From the NCBI GenBank assembly GCA_012103315.1, contig WLWZ01000012.1:1-64000 (forward strand): a stretch of 64,000 bases of DNA, written 5' to 3'. Of this stretch, positions 2,040 through 14,483 are shown one piece after another (within the stretch, counting starts at the first letter, position 1; every line of letters starts with the position of its first letter). Position numbers and translations under genes: made by a program. The notes beneath the pieces were generated by a model, which made no database searches, had not been told where the DNA came from, and saw only the letters and a program-made list of their open reading frames with translations. The stretch is from Alphaproteobacteria bacterium. GTDB taxonomy: Bacteria > Pseudomonadota > Alphaproteobacteria > MPNO01 > UBA2964.

Positions 2040-2765
2040 TCAAACTGTTAGATAGGCCTGCCGGACTTCTTCATCAGCGGCCAATGCCTCCATAGTCCCT
2101 TCATATCGAATACGACCTTTCTCAATAATGTATGCCCGGTCGCTCACCAATGTTGCAAAATGGAGGTTCTGTTCGGAGAGTAGAACCGTCAAGCCCTCGG
2201 ATTTTAACTCTCGAATAGTATTGGCCATCTGTTCGACGATAACCGGCGCTAGACCCTCTGAAGGTTCATCTAGCAAAATCGTCGTCGGGTTACCCATCAG
2301 CGACCGGGCAATGGTCAGCATTTGCTGCTCACCGCCACTCATCTGCCCACCAGGGCGGTCTCGCATTTCGCCAAGATTAGGAAATAGCTCAAACAGGCGC
2401 TCCGGAGTCCAGGACGGCGCATCATCCCGTTGGTCCTGCCGGCCAACTTCCAAATTCTCGAGCACCGTTAAATCGGTAAAAACCCGACGGTCTTCGGGAA
2501 CATAGGCCAGACCTAGTCGACTGATTTGATAGGACGAGCGTCCGCTAATGTCAGTTTTAGAGAATTGAATCGATCCGGCGGCGATCTTCACGATGCCCAT
2601 GATGCATTTCATGGTAGTCGATTTACCGGCACCGTTACGCCCCATGAGAGCGACGACTTCCCCCGGCCTTATCTGCAAGGCAACGTCCGCTATAATATGA
2701 GCGCGCCCGTAATAACTGTTGAGGCCGTCAACCTCTAACAACGCGCTGTCAGACACAGAAGACAT
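2040..2765 (-). CDS. livF: Branched-chain amino acid-type ABC transporter, ATP-binding protein LivF
   Basis: A 241-residue ABC ATPase of the LivF type: Walker A at residues 42-50 (GRNGAGKST), signature SGGEQ at 143-147, Walker B ILLDEPSEG at 163-171, and the LivF-typical short C-terminus ending soon after the switch region. With LivG it energises import of branched-chain amino acids or, in this family's wider use, aromatic acids and amides. It is separated from livKHMG by the oppositely oriented maleylacetate reductase and by an MBL hydrolase gene, but lies on the same strand. A 9-bp inverted repeat sits directly before its start codon. Its substrate is probably aromatic given the neighbours; that is inference. 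Confidence 0.88.
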   Translation of the reverse strand: MSSVSDSALLEVDGLNSYYGRAHIIADVALQIRPGEVVALMGRNGAGKSTTMKCIMGIVKIAAGSIQFSKTDISGRSSYQISRLGLAYVPEDRRVFTDLTVLENLEVGRQDQRDDAPSWTPERLFELFPNLGEMRDRPGGQMSGGEQQMLTIARSLMGNPTTILLDEPSEGLAPVIVEQMANTIRELKSEGLTVLLSEQNLHFATLVSDRAYIIEKGRIRYEGTMEALAADEEVRQAYLTV

Positions 2766-2766
2766 T

Positions 2767-2803
2767 AATCAGGACCGATTGATTGTTTAAAGTAGTCCTG
2801 ATT
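2767..2803 (-). promoter_or_regulatory. Perfect 9-bp inverted repeat over the livF ribosome-binding region
   Basis: Bases 2767-2775 (AATCAGGAC) and 2795-2803 (GTCCTGATT) are perfectly complementary with a 19-base spacer. The proximal arm ends one base before the livF start codon, so in RNA the hairpin would enclose the translation start region; in DNA it could be an operator. Which of the two applies is not decided by the sequence. Confidence 0.45.
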
Positions 2804-2815
2804 GAAACGGGGCAG

Positions 2816-2840
2816 GCGGGTGATGTCAAACACCACCCGC
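2816..2840 (-). other. Intercistronic hairpin between MBL hydrolase gene and livF
   Basis: Arms GCGGGTG (2816-2822) and CACCCGC (2834-2840) form a 7-bp GC-rich stem with an 11-base loop, starting 13 bases past the MBL gene stop on the minus strand. There is no T-run after it, so it looks more like an mRNA-end stabiliser or partial attenuator than a full terminator. Confidence 0.35.
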
Positions 2841-2853
2841 TATCAAACGCCCG

Positions 2854-13363: not shown

Positions 13364-13453
13364 TGGCGGAGAGGGGGGGATTCGAACCCCCGAGACGCTT
13401 ACACGCCTGCTGGTTTTCAAGACCAGTGCATTCAACCACTCTGCCACCTCTCC
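13364..13453 (-). tRNA. tRNA-Ser (anticodon UGA)
   Basis: On the minus strand a 90-base tRNA with the long variable arm of tRNA-Ser. The acceptor stem GGAGAGG pairs with CCTCTCC, followed by discriminator G and an encoded CCA (complement of 13364-13366). The anticodon loop CTTGAAA gives UGA, reading UCA/UCG. The T arm contains GGTTCGAATCC. It is a single tRNA with no neighbouring RNA genes; apparent frames across it on the plus strand are artefacts. Confidence 0.97.
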
Positions 13454-13662
13454 TGACGGGCGGGACCATACGGAAAAACAAACCCTTTGTCAGCTATTCT
13501 CACATTGGGACCAAAAACCCGATCTCGCTGGTTCAATTTGCGAGAATTCCCATTACCGCATCGTCATTCAATAATTTTAACTTTCATACCAAGAGACGAT
13601 AGCAATAATTTTTCTTTATAGTTAACAATAGCTTAAAATTTATTTTCACCAAAATGACATAG

Positions 13663-13680
13663 TTGGCACGGTCCTCGCAT
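13663..13680 (+). promoter_or_regulatory. Predicted sigma-54 (RpoN) promoter
   Basis: TTGGCACG at 13663-13670, four bases, then TCGCAT. The invariant GG (13665-13666) and GC (13677-13678) are exactly 10 bases apart, as in -24/-12 promoters; the only deviation from the TGGCACG-N4-TTGCA core is C for T in the -12 half. Predicted start of RNA is about 13690. Just upstream (13646-13662) TCACCAAAATG resembles half of an NtrC site but lies closer than usual. The remaining upstream sequence, 13454-13645, is AT-rich and shows nothing else I can name. Confidence 0.7.
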
Positions 13681-13689
13681 ATCTCAGTA

Positions 13690-13825
13690 TGTTCCTGCGG
13701 CGTAGCGTTACGCAGGCAGTTTCAAGAGAACCGGGCCGCCACAGGCCCCTCCGACTCCCCCAACGTGTCGGTCCGGTTTCTCAACTGAAAAGAAACCGAA
13801 CAAACACCCTGAGGGGTGTTTTTTT
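13690..13825 (+). ncRNA. Predicted sigma-54-dependent small RNA, about 135 nt
   Basis: Between the sigma-54 promoter match and a strong terminator there is no credible reading frame, but there is dense pairing. Helix 1: 13694-13699 with 13711-13716 (CCTGCG/CGCAGG). Helix 2: 13726-13734 with 13773-13782 (9 bp, one bulged base) enclosing two hairpins, GGCC/GGCC (13734-13737 and 13744-13747, sharing its first base with helix 2) and CCGAC/GTCGG (13751-13755 and 13767-13771). A competing 7-bp helix pairs CGGTTTC (13774-13780) with GAAACCG (13792-13798), excluding helix 2. The next gene downstream is convergent, so this is not a leader for it. With ntrBC in the same window, nitrogen control is a natural hypothesis. 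I match it to no known RNA family. Confidence 0.6.
13802..13825 (+). terminator. Intrinsic terminator of the predicted small RNA
   Basis: AAACACCC (13802-13809), loop TGAG, GGGTGTTT (13814-13821) running into a seven-T tract ending at 13825. An 8-bp stem with a tetraloop and T-run is a textbook rho-independent terminator on the plus strand. On the other strand it could also help end the 2OG oxygenase transcript, whose stop lies at 13842. Confidence 0.88.
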
Positions 13826-13841
13826 GTATGTAGCCAAATTC

Positions 13842-14483
13842 TTAGGAATCAAACGTCAGTGAAACATTGAAGGATATTGATATCCGTTCGCCAGTACCCT
13901 GAAACGGATAAACACAATGATATAGCCAGCTCGGGAATACCAAAATCATCCCGGCAACCGGATCAATCCTCAGCTTCGGCAGGGCATCAGGTCCATTCAG
14001 TCCAACCATAGTTGCGCCCATGCGCGGGTCCAGAAATTCAATGCATCCCGCGTTGTCCGGCGCAGCAGGATCGCGTTCACCCGTGCAGACATAATATACC
14101 CCTGACCATGAGCAATCTGGATGATTGTGGACGGTATTGTAGCCGCCATTCCGGCACAGGTTCACCCAGGCACCACCATCCATATTCACATCGTGATCCT
14201 GGCTGAGACGACCTTCCATTTCCATATTGGTAATTTCGCCAATACCCTCGCTTATGCACCCTTTGAGGAAGTCAATTTCTGGATAGGGCCACCCCAAAAC
14301 ATCGTCACCGGAATGCCAACCACCAACATTACTCCGGCCTTGCGATGGAGATTGTTGCTCATGTTCCAAAACAATTCTTTTTAGTTCTTGATTAACCGTA
14401 TCACAGTCAGGCGCAACACGTTGATAAAGGGGAGTTGGAAAGGCGAATGAGATGTTTCCAGCGCCGGGGTATTTCGTAAGCAT
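13842..14483 (-). CDS. 2OG-Fe(II) oxygenase family protein (TIGR02466 type)
   Basis: The 213-residue protein starts with an FPTPLYQ motif typical of this putative 2-oxoglutarate oxygenase family and contains the iron triad H121-x-D123 (VHNHPD) and distal H189 (SWLYHCVYPF), with R200 placed to bind 2-oxoglutarate. GAWVNLCRNGGYN and the closing ISISFNVSL are family features. Substrate is unknown for most members; peptidyl or small-molecule hydroxylation are both possible. It is 15 bases downstream of the formyltransferase-like gene on the same strand, so probably co-transcribed with it. Confidence 0.8.
   Translation of the reverse strand: MLTKYPGAGNISFAFPTPLYQRVAPDCDTVNQELKRIVLEHEQQSPSQGRSNVGGWHSGDDVLGWPYPEIDFLKGCISEGIGEITNMEMEGRLSQDHDVNMDGGAWVNLCRNGGYNTVHNHPDCSWSGVYYVCTGERDPAAPDNAGCIEFLDPRMGATMVGLNGPDALPKLRIDPVAGMILVFPSWLYHCVYPFQGTGERISISFNVSLTFDS

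Follow-up and report, generated by a model that had tools for sequence, protein, structure and literature searches.

A gap between a tRNA-Ser gene and a convergent oxygenase gene in an alphaproteobacterial draft genome (G000; 4.11 Mb, 98% complete) raises the question of whether a regulatory RNA is encoded there and, if so, what switches it on. A first-pass annotation of the 64-kb stretch of DNA analyzed here (the window) proposed a small RNA (sRNA) transcribed from a sigma-54 promoter under the control of NtrC. Comparison with related genomes, referred to below by G numbers, indicates that the locus is very probably a sigma-54 sRNA gene, as judged from sequence. Its features, by window position, are as follows.

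13364-13453, minus strand: tRNA-Ser(TGA), the divergent upstream neighbor of the sRNA
13493-13465, minus strand: likely tRNA-Ser promoter, CTGACA-N17-TATGGT
13497-13511, plus strand: candidate upstream activator site A, TTCTCACATTGGGAC, centered at about -186
13530-13546, plus strand: candidate upstream activator site B, GGTTCAATTTGCGAGAA, centered at about -153
13624-13635, plus strand: IHF-like site AACAATAGCTTA, core CAA-N4-TTA, centered at about -60 (consensus match only)
13663-13679, plus strand: sigma-54 promoter (-24/-12), TTGGCACG-N4-TCGCA, with GG-N10-GC spacing
13690-13825, plus strand: small RNA of ~136 nt, predicted to start at about 13690 (+/-1) and to end in the T run at 13819-13825
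13695-13719, plus strand: 5' hairpin P1, CTGC-G-GCGTA-GCGT-TACGC-AG-GCAG
13715-13735, plus strand: invariant GGCAGTTTCAAGAGAACCGGG, the putative seed, identical in four genomes
13736-13803, plus strand: middle/3' module, a C-rich loop plus CCGGTTTCTCAACTG
13802-13825, plus strand: intrinsic terminator (hairpin 13802-13821)
13842-14483, minus strand: 2OG-Fe(II) oxygenase-like gene (TIGR02466, PF13759), the convergent neighbor of the sRNA

The promoter and the RNA gene

The promoter proposed earlier is present with its GG-N10-GC spacing and is conserved in place in four genomes; within the window, TTGGCACGGTCCTCGCA at 13663-13679 is the sole match with fewer than two mismatches. Taking C13678 as -12 puts the transcription start at about 13690. 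TTGGCACG and the -12 GC are kept in G000, G002, G003, and G004, and 12 of the 17 promoter positions are invariant across these genomes, against 1 of 10 in the stretch from -12 to +1. The claim of a -12 element needs a qualification: the element exists, but its TCGC is weaker than the consensus, and the three relatives have TTGC. A pattern scan of the four genomes found 47 exact matches to TTGGCAYRNNNNTTGCW and 3 to the reversed pattern, and an exact match is therefore usually real. No sigma-70 promoter was suggested near 13690. As expected of sigma-54-dependent sRNA genes, the -24/-12 promoter is placed to start a non-coding transcript, and the genome encodes both RpoN and an enhancer-binding protein. 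The rpoN gene was found in all four carriers of the RNA. G008 (96% complete), with no detected rpoN, lacks both this RNA and the second sRNA described below, and the syntenic tRNA-Ser/formyltransferase gap of G007, a 69%-complete draft in which no rpoN was found, is present without the RNA. NtrC and NtrX are encoded in G008 even though no sigma-54 gene was detected in that genome.

A DNA search placed the locus in three members of the same genus: G004 (93%), G003 (91%), and G002 (84% over the 5' part). Promoter, RNA, and terminator keep their places in all four genomes, which is the outcome that the first-pass annotation had made a test of its proposal. Identity is confined to blocks, with 44 invariant positions among the 46 nt at the 5' end of the RNA. 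The order tRNA-Ser, RNA, convergent 2OG-oxygenase gene recurs in 4/4 genomes found with the oxygenase gene, while the DNA around this unit has diverged among them; oxygenase orthologs at 82-93% identity occur only in the four RNA-bearing genomes. No plus-strand gene follows the RNA, as had been stated, the next gene (13842-14483) being convergent on the minus strand. The earlier statement that the RNA fits no known family also stands: Rfam gave nothing at gathering or permissive thresholds. A covariance model of the RNA (R1), run on 27 genomes of the order and on a 385-genome sample of the class, recovered no relative outside the genus; one weak match in G015 (E 0.19) was ignored. A 25-mer pattern run against a genome collection covering 84,980 species returned only the three known relatives, and a 19-mer pattern found nothing in viral contigs. 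On this evidence, which spans four related species, the RNA is very probably an uncatalogued, genus-specific small regulatory RNA gene.

The stable helices described earlier are borne out by folding: 13690-13830 folds at -52.8 kcal/mol (z -3.26), and 0 of 200 shuffles did as well. Hairpin P1 is kept in 4/4 genomes; G003 has its substitutions in the loop, and G002 at the end of a helix. The same-strand terminator was also described correctly (an 8-bp stem, a 4-nt loop, and seven T's), and in G003 one of its pairs has changed from A-U to G-C with compensation. The body helices hardly vary among the four genomes and so offer no compensatory changes, which leaves covariation uninformative there. 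In G002, a single-contig assembly, 66 nt of the middle/3' module are deleted, and the short form keeps P1, the 21-nt invariant stretch, and a terminator. This natural internal-deletion variant (G002:C1:316987-317085) has an intact promoter.

Could the transcript instead be a leaderless message encoding a small protein from 13689 (MFLRRSVTQAVSREPG...)? A 57-codon open frame does begin at about the predicted +1, and, of the few body substitutions, some are synonymous in it. However, its start codon varies (ATG/GTG/ATG/TTG), with no space for a ribosome site before it; in G002 the 66-nt deletion takes out most of the frame, and in G003 its 3' half differs. We consider this scarcely credible and read the stretch as non-coding, with no plausible coding frame. 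Hardly better is the idea that the hairpins do no more than terminate the convergent oxygenase gene, with the sigma-54 site a coincidence. Read on the minus strand, the terminator hairpin still scores as a weak match, but the long T run lies on the plus strand, the most conserved part of the RNA is far from the end of the oxygenase gene, and all four genomes retain the promoter although the bases between -12 and +1 vary; we judge this reading very improbable.

Upstream sites and candidate activators

Like other sigma-54 promoters, that of the sRNA should need an ATPase activator bound upstream, and sites A (-186) and B (-153) together with the IHF-like bend site (-60) would provide the expected enhancer layout. 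Across the four genomes, 9 of 15 positions are invariant in site A, 1 of 18 in the bases that follow, 15 of 17 in site B, and 13 of 77 in the bases after that. The two sites lie 33 bp apart with fixed spacing. Within site A, TTCTCACA is invariant in all four genomes, and in G003 the site is degraded beyond it. The CAA and TTA of the IHF-like site are likewise invariant, and the N4 between them differs. Sites A and B were noted as invariant blocks before the gene of the candidate activator described next was examined.

G000 encodes six clear enhancer-binding proteins: NtrC, NtrX, FlbD, PrsR, a DctD-like protein that sits beside a TRAP transporter, and a LuxO-like protein on contig C22. G003, which is 98% complete and has the RNA, shows only NtrC, NtrX, and the DctD-like and LuxO-like proteins as clear activators, and FlbD and PrsR are therefore unlikely to be required. 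The best model for the protein on C22 is LuxO, the quorum-sensing activator of Vibrio, at 612.8 bits against an equivalog cut-off of 800; it is therefore LuxO-like and not a true LuxO. Its best structure matches are LuxO structures. G002, G003, and G004 each encode an ortholog (about 83-90% identity), and among the 13 genomes of the family the protein was found only in the 4 that bear the RNA, several of the others being incomplete.

The LuxO-like gene (within G000:C22:118500-128500) is flanked by two sigma-54 promoters. Promoter A, found in four genomes, precedes a gene for a 197-aa protein without a Pfam match and has a conserved palindrome, GTCTCAAATAGAGAC, plus a second site 42 bp upstream. 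Promoter B, found in three, precedes a gene for an OmpA-type lipoprotein; in G000 an RTX-repeat protein gene lies downstream of the lipoprotein gene.

A matrix built from the LuxO-like-gene sites picked out A and B as the two best matches upstream of the sRNA in G000, G004, and G002, where 1, 0, and 3 of 2000 shuffles, respectively, matched both sites; in G003 only site B was a top match. With a matrix from the palindrome GTCTCAAATAGAGAC only, both sRNA sites again came out on top in G000 and G004 (1 and 2 of 1000 shuffles), and the result was weaker for G002 and G003. Conversely, a matrix made from the sRNA sites ranked promoter A of the four genomes above all other collected sigma-54 promoters (none of 1000 shuffles attained both of its top scores) and gave promoter B only a modest score. 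These comparisons use a motif built from few, partly related sites, and the register of site B was chosen after the LuxO-like-gene sites had been seen, so the matrices are not fully independent. By site similarity and gene adjacency, the LuxO-like regulator has in our estimate an even chance of being the activator.

NtrC was the activator named by the first-pass annotation. The ntrC gene is indeed in the window (38.8-40.2 kb), with ntrB upstream of it and ntrX at 35.0-36.5 kb; all carriers of the RNA have NtrC, and in Sinorhizobium the sRNA mmgR is induced by NtrC (PMC7143759). The proposal had no other basis than ntrBC about 25 kb away, and it did not hold up: upstream of the RNA, neither GCAC-N4..9-GTGC (with at most one mismatch) nor TGC-N11-GCA was found in any of the four genomes, so that an NtrC-type palindrome is missing. 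Almost all genomes of the family encode NtrC, those without the RNA among them, and the conserved sites match another promoter set. We therefore regard activation of the same sRNA by NtrC under nitrogen limitation as improbable. Somewhat less so, although still unlikely, is another enhancer-binding protein, such as the DctD-like protein, NtrX, or one acting through unrecognized sites. The carriers do have DctD-like and NtrX proteins, and the case for the LuxO-like regulator is one of site similarity and gene adjacency; against this, the region upstream of the DctD-linked TRAP promoter failed to score with the sRNA-site matrix.

Predicted action of the RNA and a second small RNA

The best explanation, to which we give somewhat better than an even chance, is a stand-alone sigma-54 sRNA that is activated by the LuxO-like regulator and pairs in trans. 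The LuxO/SypG-like response regulator encoded on contig C22, when active, would bind sites A and B; IHF would bend the DNA between these enhancer sites and the promoter; and sigma-54 RNA polymerase would transcribe the sRNA, starting at about 13690 and stopping in the terminator at 13825. The RNA itself is likely to be trans-acting and base-pairing, and would pair through the invariant GGCAGUUUCAAGAGAACCGGG adjoining the 5' hairpin. GAGAACCGG, within 13715-13735, can pair with CCGGTTTCTC further on, and the putative seed has a self-complementary partner in CCGGTTTCTCAACTG. Pairing of CCGGUUUCUC with GAGAACCGG is possible in the long form, so the 3' module may mask the seed. The short form of G002 would leave the seed exposed, and fold prediction has it mostly unpaired there.

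Hfq dependence is plausible because the terminator has a U-rich tail, a Rho-independent terminator with a U tail being what Hfq-dependent trans-acting sRNAs carry. The hfq gene reported in the window corresponds to an Hfq-like ORF, judged by eye, at about 31.7-32.0 kb. A search of the four genomes for complements of the seed (at most two mismatches) returned 115 matches, including the RNA's own locus, against 81 for a reversed control; among 30 loci inspected of these 115 matches to the 14-nt seed, no start-codon site was shared between genomes. Duplex energies were also compared for the neighboring genes, the LuxO-like gene with the genes on either side of it, and the ntr genes; only ntrX slightly beat shuffles, in one genome.

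Five genomes (G000, G001, G002, G003, and G004) have a second short RNA with a sigma-54 promoter and a terminator, next to a LonB-like protease gene.

G000:C14:298744-298844, minus strand, and L178, about 2739-2845, minus strand: second sRNA; also in L138, L139, L141, and L142

In G000 and G004 this RNA matches RF00519 (suhB/MmgR) at 27-29 bits, below the cut-off of 41. In the 72%-complete draft G001, only NtrC and NtrX were seen as activators. In G000 the second sRNA is preceded, about 35-60 bp before its -24 element, by a palindrome, GCGCCATACGG-N-CGTATGGCGC. This palindrome is partly degraded in the other genomes and unlike the sites of the first sRNA, and may be an activator site or a hairpin. 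Some weak sites in front of this RNA were considered as LuxO-like and set aside as doubtful, given its similarity to MmgR and the different palindrome. Pairing between the two sRNAs was no better than for shuffles.

Relation to known sigma-54-controlled RNAs

To our knowledge, descriptions of sigma-54-dependent sRNAs in Alphaproteobacteria are few, and only Vibrionaceae are known to place an sRNA under LuxO-type control. NrsZ and CrcZ/CrcY of Pseudomonas and Azotobacter are sigma-54-controlled sRNAs with NtrC- or CbrB-type activators; unlike these, the sRNA described here has no Rfam match and no NtrC-type site upstream. CrcZ/CrcY are treated in PMC6292655. For MmgR of rhizobia, an RpoN promoter and NtrC control have been reported (PMC7143759). 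The first sRNA resembles MmgR/suhB (alpha-r8, RF00519) in being an alphaproteobacterial sRNA with an RpoN promoter, but it does not match that family, and it is the second sRNA of the same genomes that is MmgR-like.

The Qrr sRNAs of Vibrionaceae offer another comparison. In Vibrio fischeri, SypG and LuxO both activate the sigma-54-dependent qrr1 through two upstream regions, and the SypG motif is TTCTCANNNTGMDWN (PMC10162802). Like Qrr, the sRNA here is a stand-alone sigma-54 sRNA gene with two upstream activator sites, in a genome with a LuxO-like activator, and site A differs from the SypG motif by one mismatch. Unlike Qrr, it is alphaproteobacterial, lacks an Rfam match, and does not adjoin the LuxO-like gene. 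The genome has no true LuxO, and there is no LuxO-type TTGCA-N3-TGCAA site: the Vibrio LuxO motif TTGCAWWWTGCAA was not found upstream of the sRNA, where the best site has three mismatches.

We tentatively put forward, as a possibility short of an even chance, that an alphaproteobacterial LuxO-like activator drives this sigma-54 sRNA together with the adjoining OmpA-lipoprotein/RTX-repeat locus, the RNA occurring in a long, self-masking and a short, exposed-seed form. If true, the circuit would be laid out like the LuxO/SypG-Qrr switch of Vibrio, but around an unrelated RNA. The RNA at this locus is uncatalogued, its predicted regulatory region is complete, and a candidate activator other than NtrC can be named; the natural deletion variant in G002 separates its minimal conserved core from the self-complementary module.
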